NCBI RefSeq assembly: GCF_029633825.1
Contig: NZ_CP090642.1
Location: forward strand, 558,001-622,000
Length of the DNA stretch: 64,000 nucleotides
From: Burkholderia contaminans
GTDB lineage: Bacteria; Pseudomonadota; Gammaproteobacteria; Burkholderiales; Burkholderiaceae
Direction of reading: 5' to 3'
Of this stretch, positions 13,705 through 27,815 are shown in pieces. Each line of letters opens with the position of its first letter. The stretch's first letter is position 1. Position numbers and translations under genes: made by a program. A model generated the notes under the pieces. That model searched no databases and was not told the DNA's origin. It saw only the letters and a list, made by a program, of their open reading frames with translations.

Positions 13705-15408
13705 CTAGCGCCGATCCAGCAGTGTATCGCTCAAAACGCTGAACGCCGCGCCCGGCAATTCATGCAGATGCTCGACCACGCGGCTGACCGGATAGAACGT
13801 TTCGACCGCATCGTCGAGGATCCCGACACCGATCAGTTCGACGCGCCGCTCGCGCAGCGCATCGACGCGGGCGCGCAGGTCGGTGCGCAGGATTGTCGGG
13901 TTGCCGTCGCCGGTGGCCGGATAGCCGTCCGACAGCACCATCAGGATTCGCCGCCGTGCCCGTTTCGCCAGCAGCCGCTCGGCGGCCCAGCTCAACGCCT
14001 CGCCGTCGGGATTCTCGTGGCCGCATTCGATGCAGGCGAGGCCGCTCGGGTTGTCGGAATCGAAGCGCTTGTAGACGCGCAGGTCGAGCCGTTCGACGAA
14101 CCGGTTATAGCCGAACGTGTCGTGGCCGGCGTCGATCCAGCGCTGGTAATGCGCGCGCATCGCGGCATCCTCGACGGAGCTGTAGCCGAGCACTTCGCAC
14201 GCGAAGCCGAGCTGCGTCAGCGCATCGCACAGCGCCGCCGCGCACAGCCTGGCGAGTTCGATCTTCCTGCCGGCCATCGACCCGCTGCAATCGATCAGCA
14301 GGCTGACGGCCGCGTCGCGCCCGGGGGCGGCGCGCGGGACGCGGAATGGCGTGCGATAGCCGGGCGACGTGACGAGGTGGGCGAGCGACATCCGGTCGAG
14401 CTCGCCGCGCTCCTGTTCGCGTTTCCAGCGCGTCTGCTCGTCCACTTTCAACGCACGTTCGAGCCGTAGCTTGAGCGGCTCGGTCTGCGCGCGGGCCGCG
14501 CTTCGCAGGCGGTGCCAGCGCGCCGGTTCGCCGTTGCCGGTGAAGTCCGTCACCGTATCGAACGCGGTGGTCAGCGGGACCGACAGCAGCGGCCGGTTGT
14601 CCGCGGACAGGCGGATCGTGCGGGGAGCTGCGTCGCCCGGCGTCGGCGCTTCGGCCGACGATGCCGTGTCGGCGATCGCACCGCCGCCCGATTCGGCGGA
14701 AACGGGCGCCCGGGAATCGTCCGGCGCGCCCTGTCCGTCCGATTCGAATTCGGCGGCGATGCTGTCGCTGTCGATCGTGCTGCCCGGATCGGCCGTGAAC
14801 ATCATGTTGTTCGCACCGGCCGACGCCAGCGCGCGCACGCGTTCGACGATCCGGTGCGCGGCGCGGATGCTGTCGGAGGTCGACGTTGCTGCACGCGCTG
14901 CGTCGACGAGGTCGCTCGATGCAGCCATCGTTGCGTCGAGCGACGGCACGCGCTCGATGGAAGGCGGCGGCTCGCTCCACAGCGCACGTTCGATGCGCCA
15001 CACCAGCCTGTCGCGCCATGCCATGCGAGGCCACCGGCGGTGCGTGTCGGCGGCCGTCGCCGCGCGCATCCGCTGCAGGAACGTCGTCGCGCCGGGATAG
15101 ATCGCGGCGAGGCAGCCGGCCGCGCGCCGGTCGTCGATCGCCTGCGCAATGGCCCGCACCACGGGCGACGCCAGTGCGGCTATGTCATCGATCGCACCGA
15201 AGCGGATGCGCGCCGCGTAGAGGTCGACGAGGCCGATAATCGCATCGTCGTCGACGTCGCCGGCGAGCAGCGTGTCGGGCAGCACCAGCAGGTCGGGTTG
15301 CGCGACGGGCCCGTGTTGCGCGAACCGTACCTCGATGCCGTGCCGTTGCGCGAGCGTGCGGGCCAGACGGGTCAGGTGGAGCGACCGCGCGTCGTCGTCC
15401 CGGTCCAT
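13705..15408 (-). CDS. CobT-like VWA-domain protein
   Basis: 567 residues. The C-terminal part (from about 365) is a von Willebrand factor A domain with an intact MIDAS motif D373-C-S-G-S-M, plus the later conserved Thr/Asp positions. The N-terminal part is helical and the middle is acidic and Ser/Ala-rich. This is the CobT layout; CobT pairs with a CobS-type AAA+ ATPase in aerobic cobaltochelatase. The partner gene ends 4 bases upstream on the same strand, so they form one operon. No cobN or other cobalamin gene is nearby, so the pair may instead act as a MoxR/VWA-type chaperone on another metalloprotein. Confidence 0.85.
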   Translation of the reverse strand: MDRDDDARSLHLTRLARTLAQRHGIEVRFAQHGPVAQPDLLVLPDTLLAGDVDDDAIIGLVDLYAARIRFGAIDDIAALASPVVRAIAQAIDDRRAAGCLAAIYPGATTFLQRMRAATAADTHRRWPRMAWRDRLVWRIERALWSEPPPSIERVPSLDATMAASSDLVDAARAATSTSDSIRAAHRIVERVRALASAGANNMMFTADPGSTIDSDSIAAEFESDGQGAPDDSRAPVSAESGGGAIADTASSAEAPTPGDAAPRTIRLSADNRPLLSVPLTTAFDTVTDFTGNGEPARWHRLRSAARAQTEPLKLRLERALKVDEQTRWKREQERGELDRMSLAHLVTSPGYRTPFRVPRAAPGRDAAVSLLIDCSGSMAGRKIELARLCAAALCDALTQLGFACEVLGYSSVEDAAMRAHYQRWIDAGHDTFGYNRFVERLDLRVYKRFDSDNPSGLACIECGHENPDGEALSWAAERLLAKRARRRILMVLSDGYPATGDGNPTILRTDLRARVDALRERRVELIGVGILDDAVETFYPVSRVVEHLHELPGAAFSVLSDTLLDRR

Positions 15409-15412
15409 CGCG

Positions 15413-16615
15413 TCAGGCCTCGACGTCGATGTAGTGGCGGATGATGCTGCGGATCAGGTCGGCGTCTTCCGCGCCGACCTTCGCATAGATCGTCGGGCCG
15501 GCGGCCGCTTCGGGATCGCCGGTGCGCAGCATCAGCTCGGCCCAGTCGATCAGGCGCCGCGTCGAGAACGCGCTGGCCAGATCCTCGCGGACGAACGCGG
15601 CGCGGCAGTCGGCCGCGATTGCCGCAAGCGTGTCGGCCATCTCCGAGGTCATGGCCGCGCCGAACGTGCGCTGCAGCACGCGCGCCTCGTCGGGCGGCGG
15701 CAGGTAGTCGAGGCGGTAAACTCGCCAGCGGTCGAGAAACGCCTCGTTCATCACGTTGGCGCCCTGGTACAGATGGCGGAACTGCCCCATCGCACCCACC
15801 GCATTGGCAGTCGCGAACAGCCGGAACGACGGATGCGGGACGACGATCTCGTTGCCTTTCTCCTTCAGCAACAAGCGGCCGGCCGGTTCGAGCACGGCCG
15901 TCAGCACCGCGAGGATCGCCGGTTCCGCGAAGTCGATCTCGTCGACGATGAGCCACAGCCCTTCACGCATCGCGGTCGGCAGCACGCCGTCGACCCAGAT
16001 CGTCTCGCCGCCCTTGACGGTCCAGAACCCGACGAAATCGCCGACCGTCGTCTGCCCGTTCATGTTCGAGCGCAGCACGCCATGGCCGGCCAGCGCGGCG
16101 GCCTGCTCGATGAGGCTCGTCTTGCCCGTGCCGGTGTGGCCGATCAGCAGGATGCGCCGGTTCTCGACGATGTCTTCCAGCACGTTCGTCACGCGCGCGG
16201 TGAACAGGTAGGCCGGGTTCACCGGCGGCACGAGCGGCCCGCCCGGGCCGCGCGGCATCGGCACGCCGCCCACCTGCGCGACGTGCGTCGCATCGCCGGC
16301 TGCGGCAGGCCGCGACGCGTGCGCGCTTCGCAGCGCCTGCATGAACGCGCCGCGATCAGCGGGCGCCGCGCGATCGCCGGCTTCACGCCGGACGAAGCCT
16401 TCCTGGATCCACTTGTGCAGTTTCGCATCGAGGTTGTCCGCATCGACGACCGTATCGACCGACGTGCTGCCGTCAGGCCGGTGATGCTGGATGCGGTACA
16501 TGTGCGCGCGTTCCGAGCGGCTGACGATCCATTGCCCGGCGGACGGGTCCGCCAGTTGACGATAGACGCCGAGTACCGACGCGGCGGAGGGGGAGGAATC
16601 AGCGGGTGCGTTCAT
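15413..16615 (-). CDS. CobS/MoxR-like AAA+ ATPase
   Basis: 400 residues. An N-terminal region of about 100 residues resembles a substrate or oligomerisation domain. It is followed by the AAA+ core: Walker A GHTGTGKTS (159-167), Walker B LWLIVDEIDFAEP, sensor-1 in FRLFATANAVG and the arginine region ...EAFLDRWRVYRLDYLPP. It matches CobS-type ATPases that load metal into corrin rings together with CobT, and MoxR-type maturation ATPases. The CobT-like gene follows with a 4-base gap. Upstream lies a 480-base intergenic region. Confidence 0.87.
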   Translation of the reverse strand: MNAPADSSPSAASVLGVYRQLADPSAGQWIVSRSERAHMYRIQHHRPDGSTSVDTVVDADNLDAKLHKWIQEGFVRREAGDRAAPADRGAFMQALRSAHASRPAAAGDATHVAQVGGVPMPRGPGGPLVPPVNPAYLFTARVTNVLEDIVENRRILLIGHTGTGKTSLIEQAAALAGHGVLRSNMNGQTTVGDFVGFWTVKGGETIWVDGVLPTAMREGLWLIVDEIDFAEPAILAVLTAVLEPAGRLLLKEKGNEIVVPHPSFRLFATANAVGAMGQFRHLYQGANVMNEAFLDRWRVYRLDYLPPPDEARVLQRTFGAAMTSEMADTLAAIAADCRAAFVREDLASAFSTRRLIDWAELMLRTGDPEAAAGPTIYAKVGAEDADLIRSIIRHYIDVEA

Positions 16616-17093
16616 GGTGGCGAGCGAGAGTGGGCGGCTGGCGCGTCATGCCTGCGATGCATCGCGTCGATTGTATATTTTTGCCGTGAACCGCGACATT
16701 CGCGCGGGAATCGATCCGCTGCGATCCGGCGGGGAGCAGGCGGCGCGTCGGCTTGCCGGCGCAGCGGAGCGCCGTGGGCAATGCGCTGCAGCATGATCTT
16801 TCGGCTTCCTTGCTATGCCCCGAGCCGCTTTTGCCGTGCCGATCCGCCGGCAGCGGGGCGGCCAGGCTCGTGCTTGAGAAGGTCGATTGACACCCAGCCT
16901 TGCGCCGATTCCCGGGTTTTTCACGAAGACAACCCGTCATGTCGAATCGCGGGCTGTCACATCTTGATCAACCGGGTGGAATTTCAGTACCGTAGCAGGC
17001 TTGATCACCGGGCTTCCATCGCGTGTCCTCGGGCCGCCCGGCTCGATATCCCATTGCGCGCCGGTCGATGACACAGGCGAAGGAGTGTTGAAC
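16616..17093. other. Divergent intergenic region, no gene seen
   Basis: 478 bases between the leftward CobS/CobT-like operon and a rightward acetyltransferase gene. A T-rich patch (16671-16683) could belong to the leftward promoter. No convincing small gene or dyad was found. The open frame beginning at 17001 is an upstream extension of the next gene without ribosome-binding support. Confidence 0.45.
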
Positions 17094-17618
17094 GTGACGT
17101 TGACAGGCGGGGACAAGGTGAGAATTCGTCGTGCCAGCGCACTCGATGCCCCGGCCGTTCTGTCGATTTTCGACGGCGTGATTGCGTGGTTCGTCTCCAT
17201 CGGCAACGACGGGCAATGGGGCCGCGAGCCCTGGTCGACGCAACCCCGGCGGATCGCACTCGTGACCGACGCCTGCGCGCTGCCCGACGCGTGGGTGGCA
17301 GAAGACCAGGACGGCCGCGTCCTGGGCGCATTGATCCTCGGCGAGTCGATGCCCTACGTGCCGCCCGCGACCGAGCCGGAAATCTATGTGCGCGTGCTGG
17401 TTGCGTCGCGCGATGCGCGGGCGCGGGGTGTCGGCCGGCGCCTGATGGCCTTCGCGGACGAGCGCGCCCGCGCGGCCGGGGTGAAGCGCTTGCGGGTGGA
17501 CTGCTATGGCGGCGGGACCGGCGCGCTGGTGCGTTTCTACGAGTCGTGCGGCTATGAGCGAATTTCACCCTTCGACGTGGAAGGGTGGCCGGGGCAGTTG
17601 CTGGGGCGCCGTTTGTGA
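17094..17618 (+). CDS. GNAT-family N-acetyltransferase (GTG start)
   Basis: 174 residues if started at the GTG at 17094, which sits 8 bases behind a strong AAGGAG (17080-17085). The ATG at 17001 would add a 31-residue extension that looks untranslated. The fold is GNAT: VRVLVASRDARARGVGRRLM contains the R-G-V-G-R-R acetyl-CoA loop, and VDCYGGGTGALVRFYESCGY is motif B with the F-Y-x-x-x-G-Y end. GTG use plus strong SD fixes the start. Substrate unknown. It borders the ATP-grasp island but is convergent with it, so membership is uncertain. Confidence 0.85.
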   Translation: MTLTGGDKVRIRRASALDAPAVLSIFDGVIAWFVSIGNDGQWGREPWSTQPRRIALVTDACALPDAWVAEDQDGRVLGALILGESMPYVPPATEPEIYVRVLVASRDARARGVGRRLMAFADERARAAGVKRLRVDCYGGGTGALVRFYESCGYERISPFDVEGWPGQLLGRRL

Positions 17619-17694: not shown

Positions 17695-18906
17695 CTAGCC
17701 GGAAACGGTGGGCTGCCCGACGGGATTCCCGTGGGCCGACGAACCGGAATGCGCGGGCGCACCATCCGCACCGTGCGCGACCGGCAGCGCAACCCGTACA
17801 TAAAGAAACGCACGCCGCTCGCGGTCGGGCAGCACCTGCGGTCCGTAACTGATCGTGACCGTCCCGTCGTGGATCTCACCCGCCTGCGCGAAACGCCATG
17901 AGCCGGGATCGCTGTCGAGCAGGAATTCCGCGCGCGCATACGCTTGCGGTTCGAACCGCTCGGAAATCTCCACCGGGCGTCCGTCGAGTTTGTCGAGCAA
18001 CGCTTCGGCCATGTTGAAGCCATAGCCGTCGCGCACGATGTCGCAGATGAAGCTGCCCGCGATGCGCGGATTCAGTTCGATCACGTGCGGCACGCCGTCG
18101 TGCACGATGCAGTCCAGGTGCACGGGCCCCCAGGTCAGCCCGGCGGCCGCCGTGGCGCGCGTCCCGATGTCGATCAGTGCGCGCAGCGTGCTGGTATCGA
18201 GGTCGAGTTCGGACGTATAGCCGCGCTCGAGAAAGCCTGCCCCATGCCGTTTCAGCTTGCGCAGCGCGCCGACGTACCGGCCGTCGAAATACTCGACGCA
18301 GTATTCGCTGCCGCTCAGGAATTCCTCGATCACGACGCGCTCGGTCGCGAGCGCTTGCGCGTCGGCGTGTCCGGCGGCGAGGGCGTCGAGCTGCGCACGC
18401 ACCTCGGCGATGCTCTCGCAGCGCCGCACGCCGTCGCTCGCCGAGCCTTCCGACGGCTTGACGACGACCGGGAAGCGCAGCGGGTCGGCCGCGAGCGCCG
18501 CCGGCGCGGCCAGCGTGCCCGTGACGAATTGCGCGGACGGGATGCCGTGCGCGGCGAGCAGTGCCTTCTGGTTCGACTTCGACACCGCGTGCGCGACGTG
18601 GCGCGCATCGGGGCCGGGCAGGCCGAGTGCGTCGGCGACCCATGCGGCGGTGCGCGCATAGGTGTCGTGCGCGGTCGTCACGCGCAGCGTGTCGATCTCG
18701 TCCGGATAGCGCGTGCGCAGCCAGCCGGCGAGCTGGCCGGCATCGGGTTCGAGGTTGATCGTCTCGACGCCCGCCGGAAAAACGCCGTCGAGACGGTGCC
18801 CGGGGGCGGTGATCACGGTCACGGCCGCTTGCCGCGCAAGCGCGCCACGCACGAGCGCGAGGCTGCTGCCGGTGGCGCGGGCGCCGATCACGATGAGTCG
18901 CTTCAT
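17695..18906 (-). CDS. ATP-grasp ligase (second of two)
   Basis: 403 residues. An N-terminal Rossmann-like pre-ATP domain (MKRLIVIGARATGSSLALVR) precedes the ATP-grasp fold: PVVVKPSEGSASDGV (lysine and glycine-rich loop), EEFLSGSEYCVEYF, and the metal-binding VIELNPRIAGSFICD. Family knowledge: such enzymes (BL00235/LdmS/DdaF type) activate a carboxylate as acyl phosphate and join it to an amine, often an amino acid. ATG 18906 follows AAGGA; the upstream 20 residues are not needed. A transporter gene ends 49 bases upstream in the same direction. A separate ATP-grasp gene lies at 20991-22259, which suggests two successive ligations. Confidence 0.88.
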   Translation of the reverse strand: MKRLIVIGARATGSSLALVRGALARQAAVTVITAPGHRLDGVFPAGVETINLEPDAGQLAGWLRTRYPDEIDTLRVTTAHDTYARTAAWVADALGLPGPDARHVAHAVSKSNQKALLAAHGIPSAQFVTGTLAAPAALAADPLRFPVVVKPSEGSASDGVRRCESIAEVRAQLDALAAGHADAQALATERVVIEEFLSGSEYCVEYFDGRYVGALRKLKRHGAGFLERGYTSELDLDTSTLRALIDIGTRATAAAGLTWGPVHLDCIVHDGVPHVIELNPRIAGSFICDIVRDGYGFNMAEALLDKLDGRPVEISERFEPQAYARAEFLLDSDPGSWRFAQAGEIHDGTVTISYGPQVLPDRERRAFLYVRVALPVAHGADGAPAHSGSSAHGNPVGQPTVSG

Positions 18907-18955
18907 GCTGGATCCTTGATCGAAGGCGGAAAGATGGAACGGCATCGCGTGCCGG

Positions 18956-19900
18956 CTAGCGTGCACGGCGGCGCAGGCGCTGTGCTTCGAGGCGCGGCCG
19001 CAGATGCTGGACGACGCGCGGCAGCGTGTAGATCGGCAACTGCGCGCAGGTAAACACGAGCGCCATGGTGGGCGTCGCGGCGAGCCCGAGCGCGGCCCAC
19101 ATCAGGCCGACGTTGCGATTGGCGACGATCAGCGCGACATTGAGCCGCGTGCGGACATCGCCGGGCGTGAGCCCGTACGCGATGACCTGGAAGCCCGCGT
19201 TGACGGCGAACGCGAGGGCGATCGCGGTGAATGCGCGGTGCGGCGCGTCGACGATCGATTGCTGCATGCCGGCCATCGTGCCGAGCGCGAACACCAGCAG
19301 TGCGACGACGACGGTCGCATCGATCGGCGTCGCATAGCGGTCGAGCCGTGAGCCGGCGAAGCGCCGCACGAGCAGCGCGACGCCCTCGGCGCTGCCGATC
19401 AGCAGCGCGAGCCGCCACGCGAGCGTCAATGGCGAAATCGACACGGCCGCATCGTGGCTGAACCAGGCCGTCAGCAGCGGCGCGGTGAGCGGCACGAACA
19501 CCATCGACGCGAGGGTCGCGACGAGCGCGACGCTGGCGTCGAGCGACAGCATCCGCGCGATCGTCGACGTGCCGCTCGACGGCGGCGCGCAGTACGCGAT
19601 CACCAGCGCGACGACCCAGTCGTAAGGCATGCCGGCGAGCCGGGCGGCGATGCCGAGCGCGACCGGGCACGCGATCATCGTCGCGGCGGGCAGCAGCAGC
19701 GACACGGCCGGCCGCCGCGCGACCGCGCGCACCGCGCTGGGCTCGACGCGCAGCAGCGTGCCGAGCACGAACAGGAACACGGTGACGGGCATCAGCGGCC
19801 GCGCGAGATCCGCGAGCGGCGGCACCAGCAGCCCGAGGCCGACGCCGCACGCGAGCACGGTCGGACCGCGCCGCACCAGCGCGGCGATCAGCGTGCCCAC
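18956..19900 (-). CDS. Bile-acid:sodium symporter-like (BASS/SBF) transporter
   Basis: 314 residues with about nine to ten membrane helices. LMPVTVFLFVLGTLLRVEP, AYCAPPSSGTSTIARMLSLD and VANRNVGLMWAALG correspond to the helix-crossover regions of the BASS superfamily, which moves organic anions with Na+. The GTG at 19900 was preferred as start because GAGG lies 7 bases before it and the first helix follows directly; the frame is open 30 codons further. It sits between an ATP-grasp ligase gene (downstream, 49 bases) and a divergent LysR gene. Uptake of a precursor or export of a product is inferred. Confidence 0.72.
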   Translation of the reverse strand: MGTLIAALVRRGPTVLACGVGLGLLVPPLADLARPLMPVTVFLFVLGTLLRVEPSAVRAVARRPAVSLLLPAATMIACPVALGIAARLAGMPYDWVVALVIAYCAPPSSGTSTIARMLSLDASVALVATLASMVFVPLTAPLLTAWFSHDAAVSISPLTLAWRLALLIGSAEGVALLVRRFAGSRLDRYATPIDATVVVALLVFALGTMAGMQQSIVDAPHRAFTAIALAFAVNAGFQVIAYGLTPGDVRTRLNVALIVANRNVGLMWAALGLAATPTMALVFTCAQLPIYTLPRVVQHLRPRLEAQRLRRRAR

Positions 19901-20067
19901 GGGCGCGCCTCGGAGCGACGGCGGACGGGCGTACGACCTGGGCAGGCAGAGAAGGGCATGCGGATTCCTCGGGAGCGGGCCGTCGGGCACCGGGTATTCG
20001 CTAGGCTAATCCGGATTTTTGGCGAAGTAAAATGATATAAACACAATCTGTAACAAGAGAAAGTGAT

Positions 20068-20943
20068 ATGAACATCCCTCTGCTCGAAACCTTCCGGGCC
20101 GTCGTTCAGGAAGGCAGCGCGCTGCGCGCGGCCGAACGGCTCGGCTGCACGCAGTCGAACGTCACCGCGCGGCTGCGCCAGCTCGAAGCGTCGCTCGACG
20201 CGCCGCTGTTCGACCGGCACGGCAAGCGGCTGGTGCTGAACGACGCCGGGCGCCGGCTGATCCCGTATTGCGACCGCATCCTGCGCCTCGTCGACGAAGC
20301 GACGCAGGTGGTGCGCGAAGCACCGGTCGCGCGCAACTTCCGGCTCGGCTCGATGGAAAGCACGGCGGCCACGCGGTTGCCGGCGCTCGCCGCCGCGTTG
20401 AAGGCGCGCGACCCGGCGCTCGGCCTCGCGGTGCAGATCGGCAGCGAACCGGATCTGGCCGACGCGCTGCTGCGCGGCCGGATCGACGCAGCGCTTACGG
20501 CGCGCGCGGTCGTGCGCCCCGGGTTGCGCTACGAGCCGGCGTTCGCCGAAGAGATGGTGCTGGTGAGCGTCGCCACGGCCACGCGGCGGCAGGTGCTGGC
20601 CGACAACCCGGTGCGGCTGCTCGCGTTTCACGACGGCTGCCCGTATCGCGCGGTCGCGGAGCACTGGCTGAAGGCACGCGGCGTCGCGATCGAGTCGGTG
20701 GCATCGTTCGGCACGTTCGGCGCGATCCTCGGCTGCGTGGCGGCCGGGATGGGCGTCGCGATCGTGCCGAAGCGGATCACGACCGAGCACGTGGCGCGCA
20801 AGGAGCTGCGGGCGCATGCGTTCGACGATCTCGACAGCGTGACGACCTATCTCGTCACGTCCGAAGAAGCGCCTGAGCTGCCCGAGCTCGATACCTTGCG
20901 TGCGGTGCTGGGGCGGCAGGCAGGGGCGCTGCTCGGGCGCTAG
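20068..20943 (+). CDS. LysR-type regulator of the ATP-grasp island
   Basis: 291 residues, complete. The winged helix-turn-helix occupies residues 1-60 (MNIPLLETFRAVVQEGSALR, then AAERLGCTQSNVTARLRQLE). The effector domain follows (from about 90), including AILGCVAAGMGVAIVPKRIT. It is transcribed away from the BASS/ATP-grasp pair, with a 167-base region between the starts, the classical arrangement for control of the divergent operon. On its other side it converges with the second ATP-grasp gene. The effector is unknown; a pathway metabolite is likely. Confidence 0.92.
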   Translation: MNIPLLETFRAVVQEGSALRAAERLGCTQSNVTARLRQLEASLDAPLFDRHGKRLVLNDAGRRLIPYCDRILRLVDEATQVVREAPVARNFRLGSMESTAATRLPALAAALKARDPALGLAVQIGSEPDLADALLRGRIDAALTARAVVRPGLRYEPAFAEEMVLVSVATATRRQVLADNPVRLLAFHDGCPYRAVAEHWLKARGVAIESVASFGTFGAILGCVAAGMGVAIVPKRITTEHVARKELRAHAFDDLDSVTTYLVTSEEAPELPELDTLRAVLGRQAGALLGR

Positions 20944-20990
20944 CGGAGCGCACTTCGGCGCGCCGCACCGCAAGTGCTGCGCCGGTCGCG

Positions 20991-22259
20991 CTACGCCGGC
21001 ACGACCGCCCGTTCATCCGCGAAGAATTCAGCCTCGATCTCGCGAATCCGCCGGCAATCCTCCAGCAGTCGCTCGAACGTCGGGCTGTAAAGGCCGACGG
21101 TGCCGAGCGCCGTCTGCAGGTCGGTCGTCACGCGCAGCGTGTCGCCCACCCTGGCCCATTGCTTGAGCCCGACGAACGACGGCAGCGCCTGGATCGCCTG
21201 CCACGTGAAGTCCTGCCGCAGTACGCCGTTGCGCGACGACAGCAGCAGCACGTGCCCGCAGAAACCGCGAAAATCCGTCGGCGCGGCGACTTCGCCGAAC
21301 AGTCGCTCCGGGTGCAGCACCGCTTCGACGGCAGCCGACACGTGATTCTCGCCGCTGACCGCGCTCGTCAGCCGCGGATCGAGGCTGCCGTGCAGCCGCG
21401 CGTTCAGCTCGACGATCGTCGGGCCGTCGGCCGTATCGAACAGTTCGAGATGGGTCGGCCCGAAGCGCACGTCCAGGGCATCGAGCACGGCGGTCGCGTA
21501 GTCGAGCAGCGGCGCGTAGCGCGGATCGGCGTGATTCAGCACCAGCATCTTGTCGAGCCGCGGCGCGTGCGTGCGGTCGCGGTGCACTTCCCACAGGCTG
21601 ACCACCCGGTGGCGGCCTTCGAACGACACCGAATCGACGATGTATTCCTGCCCCTCCGAATAGCTCTGGATCACGATGTCGTCGTTCGGCTGGTTGTACA
21701 GCGAACGGGTGGCCAGCACGTCGCGCGCGGCGGCCTCGACCTGGTCGAGCGTGCGGCAGATCTTCACGCCGGTCACGCCCGCGCTTCGCGCCGGTTTCAC
21801 CACGAGCGGCAGCTTGCCGTACGCGCGCGCCCATTCGAGTGCGGCGTCGACCGACGTGCTGTGGAAGTGCGCCGGGGCACGCAGGCCGGCCTGGCGAATG
21901 CGCTCGTTCATCGCGTACTTGTCGCGCCGCGCGGCCGACGTCGCGAGCGGATTGCGCGTCGGCACGTCGAGCCGCTCGGCGAGCGTGTCGGCGAGCTCCA
22001 GCGCCGCGTCGAGGCCGTGCAGCACCGCGCCGATCCGCAGATCGCGCAACTGCGCGAGCGTCGCGTCGACGTCGCCGTGGTGCTGGACCTGGCGGATATA
22101 GTCGGACGGGACGAACTGGTTCCGGTAGATTTCCGGCAGGTCGGGATCGCTGATCACGTGCGCGCAACGGATGCCGTAGGCGCGGAACGCGGGCGCCAGA
22201 TAGGCGGCTGTCGACGCGCCGTCGACGATCAGGACGGTATCGATGAAACGATGCGGCAT
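20991..22259 (-). CDS. ATP-grasp ligase (first of two)
   Basis: 422 residues. N-terminal domain MPHRFIDTVLIVDGASTAAY is followed by an ATP-grasp core with LPLVVKPARSAGVTGVKICR, QEYIVDSVSFEG and the metal site TIVELNARLHGSLDPR. It resembles L-amino-acid ligases and carnosine-synthase-like enzymes that form amide bonds between amino acids. It differs clearly from the other ATP-grasp protein here, so it is not a recent copy. The MFS exporter gene ends 44 bases upstream on the same strand, which suggests product export coupled to synthesis. Its substrates cannot be read from sequence. Confidence 0.88.
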   Translation of the reverse strand: MPHRFIDTVLIVDGASTAAYLAPAFRAYGIRCAHVISDPDLPEIYRNQFVPSDYIRQVQHHGDVDATLAQLRDLRIGAVLHGLDAALELADTLAERLDVPTRNPLATSAARRDKYAMNERIRQAGLRAPAHFHSTSVDAALEWARAYGKLPLVVKPARSAGVTGVKICRTLDQVEAAARDVLATRSLYNQPNDDIVIQSYSEGQEYIVDSVSFEGRHRVVSLWEVHRDRTHAPRLDKMLVLNHADPRYAPLLDYATAVLDALDVRFGPTHLELFDTADGPTIVELNARLHGSLDPRLTSAVSGENHVSAAVEAVLHPERLFGEVAAPTDFRGFCGHVLLLSSRNGVLRQDFTWQAIQALPSFVGLKQWARVGDTLRVTTDLQTALGTVGLYSPTFERLLEDCRRIREIEAEFFADERAVVPA

Positions 22260-22303
22260 GGATTCCTCGCTGTGCTGTGGGGTCGGTTGAAGGGGGGATG
22301 GGC

Positions 22304-23736
22304 TCAGGCCCGCGAGCCGCTGTCGGGCGCGTCGCCGGGCCAGCGCGCGGCCAGCACGATGCAGAGGGCGACGAGCACGGCCGCGACCGCGAACCCGCGC
22401 GCCGCGCCGGCCACGATCGCCGCGCCCCGGCCCGCGACCAGCGCGCCGAGCGCCGCGACGCCGACGGCCGCGCCCACCGGCGCGCGGTATTGAGGATCGC
22501 CGACGCGGTGGCCGAGCGGCCGGCCTCGACGCTGCCGAGCATCGTCGACGTCAGCGCGGGAATCGCGATGCCGCCGCCGATCGCCATCGCCGCGAGCCCG
22601 GGCGCCAGCAGCGCATACGGCGTGTGCGCGCCGAGCGTCTGCCACAGCCACACGTAGCCCGCGAACGACACGGCGAGGCCGACGATGACGGTCGCGCGGA
22701 ATCCATGGCGGACGGCGAGACGCGCACTCGCGATGTTGGCGAGCATGATGATCGTGAGCGGCGCGAGCGCGAGCCCCGACTCGGTCGCGGTGAAGCCGCG
22801 CGCGTTCTGGAAATACAGGCTCAGCGAAAAGATCAGCCCGTAGAACGCGGCATTCGTGACTGCGCCGATCGCGAGCACGCCCGGCACGCGCGCGATCCGG
22901 AAGAATGCGAGCTGCAGCATCGGCGCGGCCACGCGCCGCTCGATCGCGACGAACAGCGCGCCGAGCGCGACCGACGCGGCCAGCGCACCGGCCGCATACG
23001 GATCGCCGATCCCCTGCGCGCCGGCCCGGATGATCCCGCCCGTCAGCAGCGCGAGCACGAGCACCGCGACGATCTGGCCGGCCGGATCGAACAGCCGCGT
23101 GCGCGCGGCGGCCGAATCACGCACATGGCGCAGCGTGAGCCACAGGCCGCCTGCGCAGATCGGCAGGTTGATGAAGAAGATCGCGCGCCAGCCGAGCGAA
23201 TCGATCAGCAGGCCGCCGAGCGTCGGCCCGGCCGCGCTGATCGCGCCGCCCGTCGCGCTCCACCACGCGACCGCCCGCACACGGGCGGCGGCATCGTTCG
23301 CGCAAGCATGGGTGATGAGCGCGAGCGACGTAGGCAGGATCATCGCGGCGCCTACGCCCTGCGCGACGCGCGCGGCAATCAGCGCGGCCAGCGACGGCGC
23401 GAGCGCGCAGCCGAGCGATGCCAGCAGGAACAGCGCGAGACCGTATGCGAACAGCCGGCGGCTGCCGAAGCGGTCGGCCAGCGTGCCGGACGTCAGCAGC
23501 AGCGCGGCGAACGACAGCGTGTACGCATCGACGATCCATTGCAGCCCGTGGACGCTCGATCCGAATGAATGGCCGAGGCTCGGAATCGCGACGTTGACCA
23601 CGGTCACGTCGAGCTGGACGATCGCGAAGCCGAGGCTCGCGGCCGCGACGGTCGGGAAGATCGCGCGCAGCGACGTGCGGTACGGCCTCGCGCCGGCTGG
23701 CAGCGAGCGCTCGAGTGCCGGCGCGCGATCGCTCAT
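22304..23736 (-). pseudogene. MFS (DHA2-type) exporter with one-base frameshift
   Basis: The open frame starts at ATG 23736 behind GGAGGA and encodes a 14-helix drug-exporter-like MFS protein (IVQLDVTVVNVAIPSLGHSF, then the motif-A loop LADRFGSRRLF). After SATASAILNTAR, near 22480, the frame leaves the family and runs on into the ATP-grasp gene as Arg-rich sequence. The proper C-terminus (VGAAVGVAALGALVAG..., ending PGDAPDSGSRA) continues in another frame to 22304. One missing base fits: CGCCGGTGGG where CGCCAGGTGGG would restore QVGAAVG. Either the exporter is broken or the sequence has an indel. It probably belongs to the same operon as the ATP-grasp gene 44 bases downstream. Confidence 0.82.
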
Positions 23737-24171
23737 CGTGTCCTCCGCGTCGCGTGGCGGGGGGGGCGGCACGCAGCCGGCGGCGCGTCGTTTGCGGGCG
23801 AACTGCGCAGCAGATGGAATCGGTTCATCTAACGGGTTTCCGTGGGGCGGAGGAAGGGCGCCGGCTGCCGATCGACGGCCGGCGCATCGTCGAATCCGAC
23901 AGAAAACTAGCATCGACCCGTTAGCGAATACAAATAATATGCCGCGATTATTTAACAACTATTCGTGTTAAGCGGCGGTGCGAACGACGTGGACAGCCAC
24001 TCTCAGCATTGCAGAACTTATATCGAAATTTTTTGTTTGCAATCGAATTAATATCATTTCGAAATGCAATGACGGTCTCCTAGTCTTGTCGAGCGCTGAG
24101 CCCCGAGGACGGCAACGCGCGGCGGTAGTGCCCTACCGCTTATCGACCCCCGATCTTTATACGAGAGACCT
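23737..24171. promoter_or_regulatory. Divergent AT-rich control region with nested inverted repeats
   Basis: 435 bases between the leftward MFS/ATP-grasp operon and the rightward oxygenase operon. The part 23890-24070 is strikingly AT-rich against the surrounding sequence. It holds a perfect 12-base palindrome CATTTCGAAATG (24055-24066) and an outer pair CATTGCA (24007-24013) / TGCAATG (24065-24071), with a third TTGCAAT between them. Such spaced repeats suit a LysR-type or MarR-type operator serving both promoters. No gene is visible. Confidence 0.5.
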
Positions 24172-25290
24172 ATGACCTATCTCGCAGATGAACGCATCGT
24201 TTTGACGGCAGCGGAATCCAGTCATATCCGGACGACGCTCGGCGCACTGGCCTATGATCCGGCCGGCGGCGCGGGCTACATCAGCGCGGTGCGCAAGCTC
24301 GCCTACAACGCGTTTCCCGACCGGGTCGTCGACGCGTTCGATCGCGCGAAGGCGCCGACCGCCGATGCGCACGGCTCGATCGAGATCGACAACCTGCCGA
24401 TCGACGAGGGCGTGAAGGGCAGCCCGAGGTTCGAGGAAACCGGCCGCTCGTTCAAGGCCGGCGTGTTGAGCGAGAACGTCCTGGTCGCGTTGAGCACGCT
24501 GGCCGGCGAGCCGTATTCGATTGCGCACGAAGGCCGCGAGCTCGTGAACAACCTCACGCCGCACAAGGCGACCGCGCGCGACTATACGGGCCTGGGCTCC
24601 GAGGTCGAGCTCGATTTCCATATCGAGAACGCCGCGCAGGCGCACATGCCGGAAGGCGATACGTCGCCGTTCGCGTTGCTGCTGCTCGGCGTGCGCAGTG
24701 AAGCAGGCGGCGGCCCGTACACGCGGCTCGCCGATGCGCGTCGCGCACTGCAGCTGCTGTCGCCGGAGGATATCGCGCAGCTCTACGGCGAGCACTACAT
24801 CATCCGCGTGCCATACCGGTGGCGCGGGGCGGCGCCGACGCCGCGCGACAACACCGACCTGAGCGCGGTGCTGTCGGGGCCGCTCGATGCGCCGCGCGTG
24901 ACGGTCGCGTTCTATCCGGACATGGTGCTGGCGGTCAACACGCGCGCGCAGGAGGCGCTGGCCAACCTGTATCGCGCGGTGCGCGAGGTGTCGTTCGGCG
25001 TGCAGATTCAACCGGGCAAGCTGGTGCTGATCAACAATCATTTCACGCTGCATTCGCGCGACCGTTTCGATCCGCAATACGACGAGAACGACCGGGCATT
25101 GCGCTGGGTTCAGCGCGTGTTCGTCGCACGCAGCCTGTGGAACTTCCGCGCGTTCACGCCGCTGCAGGCGCGCGTGTTCGATCCGAAGGCGCTGTATGCG
25201 GGCGAGTCGCAAGCAACGCGCCCGTCGCCGGTTGCGCAACCGGTCACGCAACGCGCGGCCGCGGCCGAACTCGAGGCGACGCCCGCCTGA
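24172..25290 (+). CDS. Fe(II)/2-oxoglutarate oxygenase, amino-acid-hydroxylase type
   Basis: 372 residues of the clavaminate-synthase-like superfamily. The iron-binding facial triad is visible as H150-x-E152 (ELDFHIENA) and H294 (NNHFTLHSRDRF). R308 lies 14 residues after the distal His, the spacing seen for the 2-oxoglutarate-binding Arg in VioC (arginine beta-hydroxylase) and AsnO (asparagine hydroxylase). The HxE rather than HxD triad is characteristic of that subgroup, which hydroxylates the beta or gamma carbon of free amino acids. A 30-residue Ala/Pro-rich tail is extra. The amino-acid binding protein gene follows in the same direction. The substrate is inferred to be a free or ligated amino acid. 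Confidence 0.85.
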   Translation: MTYLADERIVLTAAESSHIRTTLGALAYDPAGGAGYISAVRKLAYNAFPDRVVDAFDRAKAPTADAHGSIEIDNLPIDEGVKGSPRFEETGRSFKAGVLSENVLVALSTLAGEPYSIAHEGRELVNNLTPHKATARDYTGLGSEVELDFHIENAAQAHMPEGDTSPFALLLLGVRSEAGGGPYTRLADARRALQLLSPEDIAQLYGEHYIIRVPYRWRGAAPTPRDNTDLSAVLSGPLDAPRVTVAFYPDMVLAVNTRAQEALANLYRAVREVSFGVQIQPGKLVLINNHFTLHSRDRFDPQYDENDRALRWVQRVFVARSLWNFRAFTPLQARVFDPKALYAGESQATRPSPVAQPVTQRAAAAELEATPA

Positions 25291-25388
25291 GCGGGCCGGG
25301 AACGCCAGGCGGCGACGGGCGCTGAAAATCGTTCGCTCCGCCCGCGTTCCGCGCCCGCATCATCAAAAAACAAAGGAATCCGGAAGAC

Positions 25389-26327
25389 ATGATAAGAACA
25401 GCATTCCCCGTCGTGCGCGTCGTTCGCGTGCTGGCCGCCGTCCTGATCGGCAGCAGCGTGGCCGCGCAGGCCGCGACGTTCGACCTGAGCCCCGAGCAGC
25501 CCGGCCGGCAACGCGGCGCCGTGAACCCGGCGGTCGAACAGGCGTTGCCGGCCGGCTTCCGGTTTGCGGAAGCGAACACACTGACGATCGGCATCGCGCC
25601 GAACCTGCCGCCGCTCAGCACCTATGCGACCGATGCGCGGACGGTGGTCGGCTTCGATCCCGATCTCGCGCAGCTCGTCGCGGACAGCATCGGCCGCAAG
25701 CTGAAGATCGTGCCGCTTTCCTGGGCCGACTGGCCGCTCGCGCTGCAGTCCGGCAAGGTCGACGCGGTGATCTCGAACGTGACGGTGACCGAACAGCGCA
25801 AGGAGAAATTCGACTTCTCGACCTACCGGAAGGATCAGCTCGGCTTCTACGTGAAGAACGGCAGCCGGATTGCGGCGATCCGCGAGCCGAAAGATGTTGC
25901 CGGGCTGCGCGTCGTGACCGATTCGGGCACGAACCAGGAAAAGATCCTGCTCGAGTGGAACCGGCAGAACGTCGCGCGCGGCCTCGCGCCGGTCGAGATC
26001 CAGTATTACGCGGATGCGGCCGAGCGCTGGGTCGCGCTGCAGTCGGGGCGCGTCGACACGATCTTCAGCGTGAATTCGATGCTCGCGTACCAGGCGTCGC
26101 TGCGCGGCGATGCGAAGCTGATCGGCACCGTGAGCGGCGGCTGGCCGCGCACCGCGGACATCGCGATCACGACACGCAAGGGCAGCGGCCTCGCCGAGCC
26201 GCTGACGGTCGCGATCAATGCGCTGATCGCGAACGGCAGCTACCGGAAGGTGCTCGGCCGCTGGAGCCTCGACGCCGAAGCGATCGACCGGTCGCAGACC
26301 AACCCGCCGGGGCTGCCGCGCACCTGA
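25389..26327 (+). CDS. Polar amino-acid ABC transporter substrate-binding protein
   Basis: 312 residues. A signal peptide (basic N-terminus, hydrophobic core, cleavage after AAQA near residue 29) precedes a type-2 periplasmic binding fold. NTLTIGIAPNLPPLSTYAT, VVGFDPDLAQLVADSIGRKL, SGKVDAVISNVTVTEQRKEK and GLRVVTDSGTNQEKIL are the standard landmarks of the glutamine/cystine-type family. The ribosome-binding site GGAAG lies 6 bases before ATG 25389. No permease or ATPase gene accompanies it, so it must use another transporter or serve as a sensor. It probably feeds the upstream oxygenase or the ATP-grasp ligases. Confidence 0.9.
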   Translation: MIRTAFPVVRVVRVLAAVLIGSSVAAQAATFDLSPEQPGRQRGAVNPAVEQALPAGFRFAEANTLTIGIAPNLPPLSTYATDARTVVGFDPDLAQLVADSIGRKLKIVPLSWADWPLALQSGKVDAVISNVTVTEQRKEKFDFSTYRKDQLGFYVKNGSRIAAIREPKDVAGLRVVTDSGTNQEKILLEWNRQNVARGLAPVEIQYYADAAERWVALQSGRVDTIFSVNSMLAYQASLRGDAKLIGTVSGGWPRTADIAITTRKGSGLAEPLTVAINALIANGSYRKVLGRWSLDAEAIDRSQTNPPGLPRT

Positions 26328-26355: not shown

Positions 26356-27246
26356 TCACGTGATCGGCCACTGCAGGATCACGATCCCGTCGTTGTAGTC
26401 GGCATCGGCGCCGTCCTCCGCGCCGAGCCAGCCGAGCCAGACGGAGTCGCCCGCGGACAGCGGCGCGAGGCGCGCATCGGTCGCGGATTGCCTGCCGTTG
26501 GCCGACGCCTCGATCCGGATCTTGCCGCCCTTCGAGTTCAGCGTGAACATCCTGACGCCGTCCTCGCTGTTGCCGACGAACGATGCGGCCGGTTCCGGCG
26601 CATCGTCGACGAAGAGTTTCAGGTCCTGCCGGTCGGCGGCATTCGCATAGAAGATCGCCTTGAACGCCGTATTCGGCGGCAGCGTGAAGCGGCCATTGCG
26701 ATCCGACGACGGCTTGAAACCGGGCTGCTTCGTGTCCGGCCGGCTCCCCGCGATCTCGATCGACGTTTCCCAGCGGAAATAGCCGGATACGTTGCCGTCG
26801 CGGTCGTATACGCCGAAATCGGCCGTGCACGTGGTGGCGCCCGCGGCCAGCACGTCGCTGCGCCAGTAGTGGTCCTTCATCGGATGGCACGGCGGATGCA
26901 GCAGGTCGTCGGCATTCGGCACGGGCGTGGCCGCATCGCGCACTTCGGGTTCGATCGGCGCGACGATGCCCGCATCCTTCAACGCGAACCGGATGAACAG
27001 CACGCTCACCTCGGCGCGCAGGGCCAGCGCGGTTTCGCGCAGGCGCAGCTGGTCGCCCGGCGACAGGCCGGTAAAGAGGCGGCTGTCGTTGTGGCCGAGC
27101 TGCGCGGCGTCGCCGGGGCTCACCACATAGAGGTGCCGGCCGTCGATCACGGTCGGGGCGGCCGGGTCCCGGCTTGCCTCCGGGTAGGCCGACAGCAACG
27201 TGACGGCATCGACGATCACCAGCACATCGCAACGAAGACCAGACAT
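26356..27246 (-). CDS. bclD: AidA-like/LecB-lectin fusion (BclD-type)
   Basis: 296 residues in two domains. Residues 1-175 are an AidA/PixA-like inclusion-body domain, a paralogue of the AidA protein encoded just upstream (shared AAPTVIDGRHLYVVSPGD, RWRET/RLRET, PVPNADD). Residues from about 185 to the end match the LecB/PA-IIL calcium-dependent lectin. The calcium loop EDGADADYND (277-286) keeps all the acidic and Asn ligands of PA-IIL. The sugar-specificity triplet after the conserved Asn is A-A-D (S-S-G in PA-IIL). The protein ends Ile-Thr where PA-IIL ends in a Gly whose carboxylate binds calcium in the partner subunit. As I recall, this gene is the fourth BC2L lectin of B. cenocepacia. 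GGAGGAAG precedes ATG 27246. Confidence 0.85.
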   Translation of the reverse strand: MSGLRCDVLVIVDAVTLLSAYPEASRDPAAPTVIDGRHLYVVSPGDAAQLGHNDSRLFTGLSPGDQLRLRETALALRAEVSVLFIRFALKDAGIVAPIEPEVRDAATPVPNADDLLHPPCHPMKDHYWRSDVLAAGATTCTADFGVYDRDGNVSGYFRWETSIEIAGSRPDTKQPGFKPSSDRNGRFTLPPNTAFKAIFYANAADRQDLKLFVDDAPEPAASFVGNSEDGVRMFTLNSKGGKIRIEASANGRQSATDARLAPLSAGDSVWLGWLGAEDGADADYNDGIVILQWPIT

Positions 27247-27311: not shown

Positions 27312-27815
27312 TCAGTTATGGATCGAGATGAACGGATCCCAGGAGAAGCAGCCCTGGCTCTGGCAGTTGCGATCGATGATCTGGAACTGGAAGTGGTACG
27401 TCACGCGGCCGACTTTCAGGCATTCCGACGACCAGTAGTAGTTCGCGACCTTCTGGCAGGTCGGCACTTCGGGCTTGCTGGTGTTCGGCACCGGAATGGA
27501 CGCTTCCGCGACGCGCGGCGTGGGCGTCGAGATCAGTTCGTTGCCGACGTTGCCGACGAACTTGTAGAACACGACCTGGTTCTCGAAGCCCAGCGACAGG
27601 CTCGTTTCACGCCAGCGGATCAGGTCGCCGACCTGCGCCTTCAGGTCGAGTTCGCCGCCCGCCTGCCCGGAGATCACGTTGTCCTGGTTGGTCACCATAT
27701 AGACATAGCGCCAGTCGATCAGCGTCGGTGCGGCCGGGTTCTTGCTGGGATTCGGATATTTTTTGAGAATGGTTTCGGTATCGAAAGAGACGAGCACATC
27801 GGTGACGCGTGACAT
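27312..27815 (-). CDS. aidA: AidA, quorum-sensing-regulated inclusion-body family protein
   Basis: 167 residues of the AidA/PixA family: VTDVLVSFDTETILKKYPNP, the AAPTLIDWRYVYMVTNQDNV segment and the C-terminal CFSWDPFI. No signal peptide or membrane helix. Family knowledge: in B. cenocepacia aidA is among the genes most strongly induced by the CepIR acyl-homoserine-lactone system and is needed for killing of nematodes, though its molecular function is unknown. The start is supported by GGGAG. It is the first gene of an operon whose second gene, bclD, starts 65 bases downstream. A lux-box-like dyad with matching spacing lies 150 bases upstream. Confidence 0.9.
   Translation of the reverse strand: MSRVTDVLVSFDTETILKKYPNPSKNPAAPTLIDWRYVYMVTNQDNVISGQAGGELDLKAQVGDLIRWRETSLSLGFENQVVFYKFVGNVGNELISTPTPRVAEASIPVPNTSKPEVPTCQKVANYYWSSECLKVGRVTYHFQFQIIDRNCQSQGCFSWDPFISIHN

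Follow-up and report, generated by a model that had tools for sequence, protein, structure and literature searches.

ATP-grasp ligases are known from ketomemicin-type pathways, where one is combined with an alpha-oxoamine synthase, from pathways that also contain clavaminate synthase, and from the beta-ethynylserine cluster of Streptomyces cattleya, which pairs an oxygenase with an ATP-grasp enzyme. Twelve antibiotic clusters of Pantoea have been surveyed and, as far as the accessible part of that survey goes, they are small and several lie on plasmids (PMC11350110). Here we analyse a locus of seven genes, including two ATP-grasp ligases and an oxygenase of the clavaminate synthase type, that occupies positions 17695-26327 of a 64,000-nucleotide stretch of Burkholderia contaminans DNA. 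This stretch (the window) corresponds to bases 558001-622000 of contig 3, which is 1.53 Mb long in a genome of 9.44 Mb and 7 contigs. On balance we favour the view that the locus is a cluster independent of non-ribosomal peptide synthetases (NRPS) that makes and exports a small peptide containing an oxidised amino acid.

We infer the type of substrate, the peptide product, the order of steps, export and the biological role as follows. The oxygenase would oxidise, and most likely hydroxylate, an amino acid that probably has an apolar side chain. The two ATP-grasp ligases would then couple the oxidised amino acid to others through acyl-phosphate chemistry to give a di- or tripeptide, which a transporter of the major facilitator superfamily (MFS) would export. 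A LysR-type protein is the likely regulator in Burkholderia, and a BASS-like carrier and a solute-binding protein (SBP) would probably handle the product or a precursor of it. As to biological role, that product is most likely a secreted antimetabolite or signal.

Distribution and inheritance of the core genes

Four of the seven genes, which all lie where they were first placed, recur together beyond the genus and are referred to here as the core. These encode ATP-grasp ligase 1 (403 residues; 17695-18906, minus strand), ATP-grasp ligase 2 (422 residues; 20991-22259, minus strand), the MFS exporter (approximately 22304-23736, minus strand) and the Fe(II)/2-oxoglutarate oxygenase (24172-25290, plus strand), which is divergent from the MFS gene. 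Among 65 genomes of the genus Burkholderia, 24, including the window genome, carry the oxygenase at 92% identity or more. The named holders include species of the B. cepacia complex, the closest being B. lata at 98%. The genus search returned 28 matches in all, the others being one at 73% (genome G021) and three weak ones (E values of 3e-8 to 5e-7). ATP-grasp 2 is present in 24 of the 65 genomes, and these are exactly the 24 with the closely matching oxygenase. In a wider sample of 398 Burkholderiaceae genomes searched at an E value of 1e-60, the oxygenase was found in 29 and ATP-grasp 2 in 25, all of them within those 29. The initial annotation had named neighbourhood data in which the genes do not travel together as grounds for abandoning its proposal, and these counts left the association standing.

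The oxygenase, MFS, ATP-grasp 2, LysR, BASS and ATP-grasp 1 genes form a single block of about 9 kb in 23 of the 24 Burkholderia genomes; in genome G018 the ATP-grasp 1, BASS and LysR genes are still grouped, at a distance of about 16 kb from ATP-grasp 2. The B. cepacia complex, Paraburkholderia bryophila, Robbsia andropogonis and plasmids of Pantoea and Rahnella all carry the core, though its gene order varies. In P. bryophila the oxygenase gene is followed on the opposite strand by MFS, ATP-grasp 1 and ATP-grasp 2, and some 2.7 kb further on there is a BASS relative; in R. andropogonis the order is oxygenase, MFS, ATP-grasp 2 and ATP-grasp 1, consecutively. Because the core recurs in other genera and in other gene orders, its co-occurrence is beyond chance. 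The locus is on 'chromosome 3' in the complete relatives Burkholderia sp. MS389 and B. anthina, and on plasmid records of 0.85-1.26 Mb in three further relatives. A search of viral contigs gave 74 pattern matches, none of which was confirmed as a relative.

Trees of ATP-grasp 2 and of the MFS protein both separate Burkholderia and P. bryophila from Robbsia and the Enterobacterales plasmids (support 100/100), and the oxygenase tree agrees more weakly in placing Robbsia with Pantoea and Rahnella (83/92). Because these trees agree, the core appears to have moved between lineages as a unit. The ratios of non-synonymous to synonymous substitution rates (dN/dS), calculated against one relative for each gene and with the MFS gene left out, are 0.08 for the oxygenase, 0.11 for ATP-grasp 2, 0.12 for LysR, 0.15 for SBP, 0.17 for BASS and 0.18 for ATP-grasp 1. 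Thus, the cluster genes are maintained by purifying selection, which for the set as a whole is no stricter than in a flanking gene.

Oxygenase residues and ligase families

The oxygenase matches the TauD family PF02668 of Pfam at 42.4 bits (cut-off 27) and stays under the curated NCBIfam cut-offs for GntD (82.8 of 345 bits), CS1 (80.4 of 450) and VioC (59.8 of 418.6). Its nearest solved relatives are AsnO (E value of 4e-20 with a profile), the clavaminate synthases, the arginine beta-hydroxylase 4m23 and a lysine hydroxylase. We aligned 14 sequences, comprising the window protein, ten relatives and fragments of AsnO, the clavaminate synthase CS1 and MppO, with VioC left out. The initial annotation had described a VioC/AsnO-like enzyme with H150, E152, H294 and R308 as its key residues. 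The class and the metal triad H150/E152/H294 are borne out: the triad is intact and aligns with those of AsnO, CS1 and MppO, H150 and H294 are invariant in all 14 sequences, and position 152 is either Glu or Asp, the latter in two Streptomyces-type relatives and one from Nostoc. R308 is not conserved, being Cys in Trinickia, Asn in genome G106 and a gap in 7 of the 14 sequences. R311 is Arg throughout and aligns with the AsnO arginine that we take to be the ligand of 2-oxoglutarate, so that R311, and not R308, is the likely 2-oxoglutarate arginine of the window enzyme.

An aspartate of AsnO contacts the side-chain amide of the substrate. At the aligned position, 246 in the window enzyme, Asp is present in AsnO (the D241 position), CS1, MppO and a relative from Sulfobacillus; Ala stands there in the sequences from the window, Robbsia, Trinickia, Pantoea, P. 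bryophila and G021, while G106 has Val, Nostoc has Thr and the two Streptomyces-type relatives have Ser. There are small gaps in the alignment near this position. Position 141, the AsnO partner of which is alignment-dependent, is Leu in the same six sequences that have Ala246 and also in G106, and both Ala246 and Leu141 are invariant in the 12 rows of alignment A4. Since AsnO, clavaminate synthase and MppO have Asp where the window enzyme has Ala246, the substrate would appear to differ from the amide-, guanidine- or amine-bearing ones of the AsnO, VioC, MppO and CS1 classes and probably has an apolar side chain.

A free amino acid is the probable substrate, because the oxygenase occurs in three genomes without ligases 1 and 2 and beside unrelated transporters. 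Ligase-free oxygenase genes were seen at loci L080, L081, L082 and L018, with another transporter gene adjoining in the first three, namely an MFS gene in L080 (G021), a Mem_trans gene in L081 (G106) and an EamA gene in L082 (G195). The G195 oxygenase gene matches in two pieces.

The two ligases are different ATP-grasp enzymes, as initially proposed, and both have PF13535 domains above the cut-off of 27 bits (62.1 and 40.8 bits). ATP-grasp 1 most resembles PRK02186, in the N-terminal ATP-grasp region of that family, and its Pantoea counterpart (AGa) is 53% identical. The E-x-N motif of this protein, E278/N280, is invariant in alignment A3, and we presume these to be metal-binding positions. 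ATP-grasp 2 falls in the PRK07206 subfamily of NCBIfam with a borderline score of 302.2 bits (cut-off 302; the Pantoea relative scores 321.9), and its E-x-N motif, E284/N286, is invariant in alignment A2. In sequence searches of the PDB, the solved L-amino acid ligase 30vh matched ATP-grasp 2 (1.4e-52) and 3vot matched ATP-grasp 1 (7e-17), and BacD matched ATP-grasp 1 at about 2e-4 to 7e-4. ATP-grasp 2 is also related to the dapdiamide A synthase DdaF, scoring 209.2 bits against an equivalog cut-off of 840 in NCBIfam. Kinship to the dapdiamide- or bacilysin-like routes suggested at the outset is therefore unsupported except in the ligase fold.

The N-terminal piece of the MFS protein is nearest to the DHA2/EmrB family TIGR00711 of NCBIfam (151 bits, cut-off 230.2), and an MFS protein of the same family is encoded in every ligase-bearing locus examined.

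Extended clusters, accessory genes and alternative explanations

On plasmids of Pantoea agglomerans FL1, P. alfalfae CQ10 and Rahnella sikkimica, genes for a TetR regulator, the oxygenase, the MFS protein, three ATP-grasp proteins, a pyridoxal phosphate (PLP) enzyme and a flavin monooxygenase lie in a row, the eight genes spanning about 10 kb. The PLP enzyme is annotated as an aminotransferase and matches PRK07505 at 481 bits (cut-off 342), followed by BioF/KBL alpha-oxoamine synthases, all below cut-off; the monooxygenase belongs to the NtaA/DmoA family (351 bits, cut-off 280). In B. cepacia LK29 (L108, 14298-18617), genes for a flavin monooxygenase, an alpha-oxoamine synthase and an M14-like peptidase lie beside ATP-grasp 1. 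The LK29 synthase is 53-54% identical to that of Pantoea. This resembles the identities of the core proteins between Burkholderia and Pantoea (53% for ATP-grasp 1, about 52% for ATP-grasp 2 and 67% for the oxygenase), and so fits inheritance of the synthase together with the core. The LK29 monooxygenase, at 41%, is more diverged than the synthase. A strong match to the Pantoea synthase was found in 1 of the 65 genus genomes, three others having matches of 38-41%, and the window genome has no match at an E value of 1e-60. Three of the 24 Burkholderia genomes have the M14-like gene, identified by a sub-threshold Pfam match, adjoining ATP-grasp 1, and B. metallica retains a fragment of it. We read the extended form as the ancestral cluster, trimmed stepwise in Burkholderia; the alternative is a gain in LK29.

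A more ambitious version of this proposal must be regarded as tentative. It holds that the B. cepacia complex, Paraburkholderia, Robbsia and the Pantoea and Rahnella plasmids share, by horizontal transfer, an NRPS-free pathway family that would make a new peptide antimetabolite from an oxidised apolar amino acid, using an oxygenase of a new substrate class. The ancestral version, with its alpha-oxoamine synthase, flavin monooxygenase and third ligase, would have made a peptide-ketone relative, and would since have been trimmed in most Burkholderia.

Several observations weigh against our interpretation of the locus as a peptide-producing and peptide-exporting cluster. The oxygenase is present without ATP-grasp 2 in four genomes (G021, G088, G106 and G195), in which a direct search at an E value of 1e-30 also found no ATP-grasp 1 (four of the eight genomes searched had a match), and for this reason the oxygenase need not serve peptide synthesis only. 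In a class-wide sample searched at an E value of 1e-40, the oxygenase was found in 1 of 369 genomes, the window genome itself, so that few independent lineages are represented. The MFS frame is broken after about residue 420 of 477 in the window genome, the sole case among 26 Burkholderia loci (the 24 genome representatives, including the window, and two plasmid records). The MFS gene first described is thus present but its frame is not intact; either a genuine loss or a sequencing error could explain the interruption, and export may have been lost in this particular genome. ATP-grasp 2 is split into two matching pieces in B. arboris, and in R. sikkimica (L048, 15766-17030) the second ATP-grasp gene is annotated as shortened, again with two matching pieces, and may be interrupted. 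The ATP-grasp 1 tree has long branches and does not resolve, and ligase 1 may for that reason have been exchanged. A glycosyltransferase gene flanking the block has a dN/dS of 0.15, and only the oxygenase, ATP-grasp 2 and LysR have lower values. Finally, the AlphaFold2 model of the oxygenase, built with 12 sequences, has a mean predicted local distance difference test score (pLDDT) of 44.7, too poor for a view of the pocket, and the proposed substrate thus rests on the alignment and on residue roles taken from the literature.

The three remaining genes of the block are those for the BASS/SBF-like membrane carrier (18956-19990, minus strand), the LysR-type regulator (20068-20943, plus strand), from which the BASS and ATP-grasp 1 genes diverge, and the family-3 SBP (25389-26327, plus strand), which follows the oxygenase gene and has no adjoining ATP-binding cassette (ABC) permease gene. 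Family searches agree with the initial annotation on LysR and on an amino acid-type binding protein. The BASS-like gene was likewise correctly placed, and its label has a single sub-threshold match behind it (Pfam SBF, 19.2 bits, cut-off 24.3). LysR is nearest to the putrescine regulator PtrR, below cut-off (199.6 of 400 bits). In P. bryophila the BASS relative is 60% identical; between it and ATP-grasp 2 (L015, 3875-6072) are open reading frames (ORFs) that by eye resemble an ABC permease and a solute-binding protein, and another ABC set, also recognised by eye, lies past the oxygenase gene.

It is quite possible, if not the explanation we prefer, that the core is real and that LysR, BASS and SBP are uninvolved neighbours on the third replicon of Burkholderia. 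Their orthologues are absent beside the Robbsia, Pantoea and Rahnella versions of the core, and outside Burkholderia the BASS relative of P. bryophila is the sole exception; matches to LysR of 25% lie about 5 kb off the Pantoea cluster. Among ligase-bearing loci SBP is confined to Burkholderia, where it is a remnant in B. pyrrocinia BX1. The three genes are lineage-specific, and of the initial reading of the block as a toolkit for a small peptide, the enzyme classes and the NRPS-free pathway stand as the best account but the inclusion of these genes as core parts does not. On the other hand, all three keep their place next to the core across the compared Burkholderia loci, with dN/dS values of 0.12-0.17, and a LysR relative with 53% identity flanks the stand-alone oxygenase gene of G021.

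The finding of ligase-free oxygenase genes next to other transporters also raises the rather unlikely alternative that bioactivity resides in the free oxidised amino acid, which the ligases would convert into a masked peptide form for transport or to protect the producer, or that the peptide is a carrier cleaved by target cells. The M14-like peptidase gene beside ATP-grasp 1 would suit such a scheme, but 21 of the 24 Burkholderia genomes lack it. Moreover, ligases accompany this MFS protein at every locus seen, the MFS protein not having been searched for separately, and by eye no recognised transporter gene adjoins the Trinickia oxygenase.

We consider it improbable that the locus is a scavenging or detoxifying module in which SBP and BASS import a plant or fungal amino acid that the oxygenase and ligases then modify. 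The amino acid-type SBP after the oxygenase, the similarity of LysR to PtrR and the transport-like ORFs of P. bryophila beside ATP-grasp 2 are in keeping with import. However, the seven window genes include no ABC permease or catabolic enzyme, and the core outside Burkholderia and P. bryophila has the same-family MFS gene in all ligase-bearing loci examined while the genes proposed for uptake and its control are missing beside it.

Hydroxylated amino acids can chelate metals. A secreted metallophore, also raised by the initial annotation, is nevertheless very improbable: a TonB-dependent-receptor-like ORF (by eye) does begin at L080 19030, roughly 8 kb from the ligase-free oxygenase gene of G021 and cut by the end of the locus, but no siderophore receptor, N-hydroxylase or Fur-type family match was found among the seven window genes, and none is annotated in the Pantoea and Rahnella neighbourhoods, the family searches not extending to the flanks of other loci.

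The 435-bp region between the MFS and oxygenase genes (23737-24171) is presumed to hold both promoters; no sigma-70-type match was found within it, and the results of promoter and terminator scans did not rise above chance. PADLOC, run on ATP-grasp 1, ATP-grasp 2, the oxygenase and SBP, returned no matches, so that anti-phage defence is not indicated. The block is followed on the minus strand by genes for a two-domain protein (PixA plus a PA-IIL-type lectin; 26356-27246) and a PixA protein (27312-27815), which at that spot are present, partial or absent depending on the relative. A GNAT acetyltransferase gene (17079-17618, plus strand) adjoins ATP-grasp 1 and is nearby in some Burkholderia relatives only. 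In the left flank, a pair of genes that by eye encode AAA ATPase-like and von Willebrand-type proteins (13705-16615, minus strand) also flanks the block in several Burkholderia relatives.

Relation to described systems

The locus would belong to the ATP-grasp peptide clusters, a known kind, but no match to its particular gene set was found among the literature listed. The set is not described among the open-access literature matches listed, nor in the accessible portions of PMC2922099, PMC4010436, PMC7744662, PMC9570785 and PMC11350110. The twelve Pantoea clusters do not obviously include it, and neither PNP-2 nor PNP-3 was matched to it on the survey text available (PMC11350110). Three other Pantoea products were set aside on similarly partial texts: PNP-1 has different genes (PMC4010436), the gene table of PNP-4 (cluster 675) has acyl carrier, AMP-ligase and ketosynthase genes (PMC7744662), and Pantocin B has a GC content of 35% and occurs in Pantoea only (PMC11350110). 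PNP-3 is described there as having eight genes over 8,487 bp and as found in Pantoea only (PMC11350110). The Pantoea/Rahnella cluster likewise has eight genes, but it is also on a Rahnella plasmid and is about 10 kb long; both distribution and size argue against the two being the same.

The S. cattleya relative of the oxygenase does not lead to the beta-ethynylserine cluster, sitting instead with ORFs that by eye are glutamate mutase-like and aspartokinase-like. Distant oxygenase relatives on Streptomyces-type plasmids (L112, 752-10930; L111, 467-7813) lie with glutamate mutase-like and aspartokinase genes, and in L112 with aspartate-semialdehyde dehydrogenase and leuCD genes; these plasmid genes probably represent another amino acid pathway.

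The cluster is shared by soil and plant bacteria from two distantly related groups. Because it has no NRPS or polyketide synthase gene it could escape genome-mining tools, in the way that antiSMASH, according to the accessible part of one study, missed several small Pantoea clusters (PMC7744662). If the proposed pathway is correct, a single enzyme set would be shared by the opportunistic B. cepacia complex, Rahnella and plant-associated Pantoea, an amino acid oxygenase would be at hand without the acidic residue found at one pocket position in its studied relatives, and natural variants with two and three ligases could be used to learn how the length and sequence of a peptide are governed by ATP-grasp ligases.

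Like the dapdiamide pathway of Pantoea, the locus would use ATP-grasp ligases for peptide assembly, and DdaF is the best-scoring named equivalog of ATP-grasp 2; it differs in having a clavaminate synthase-like oxygenase and a second ligase of another subfamily, the other dapdiamide genes not having been searched for. Both ligases share the ATP-grasp fold with BacD and the L-amino acid ligases (BL00235, 30vh, 4wd3), but they are distant from the bacilysin ligase and no family match in the block suggests anticapsin synthesis. The Pantoea/Rahnella and LK29 versions resemble ketomemicin-type pathways in pairing an alpha-oxoamine synthase with ATP-grasp proteins, and differ from them in the added amino acid oxygenase; the window genome has no synthase match at the threshold given above. 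Finally, the oxygenase has the fold family, metal triad and conserved Arg of AsnO, VioC, MppO, the lysine hydroxylases and clavaminate synthase, and is set apart by Ala246 in place of the Asp of AsnO, MppO and clavaminate synthase, by small inserts and by scores under the GntD, CS1 and VioC cut-offs.

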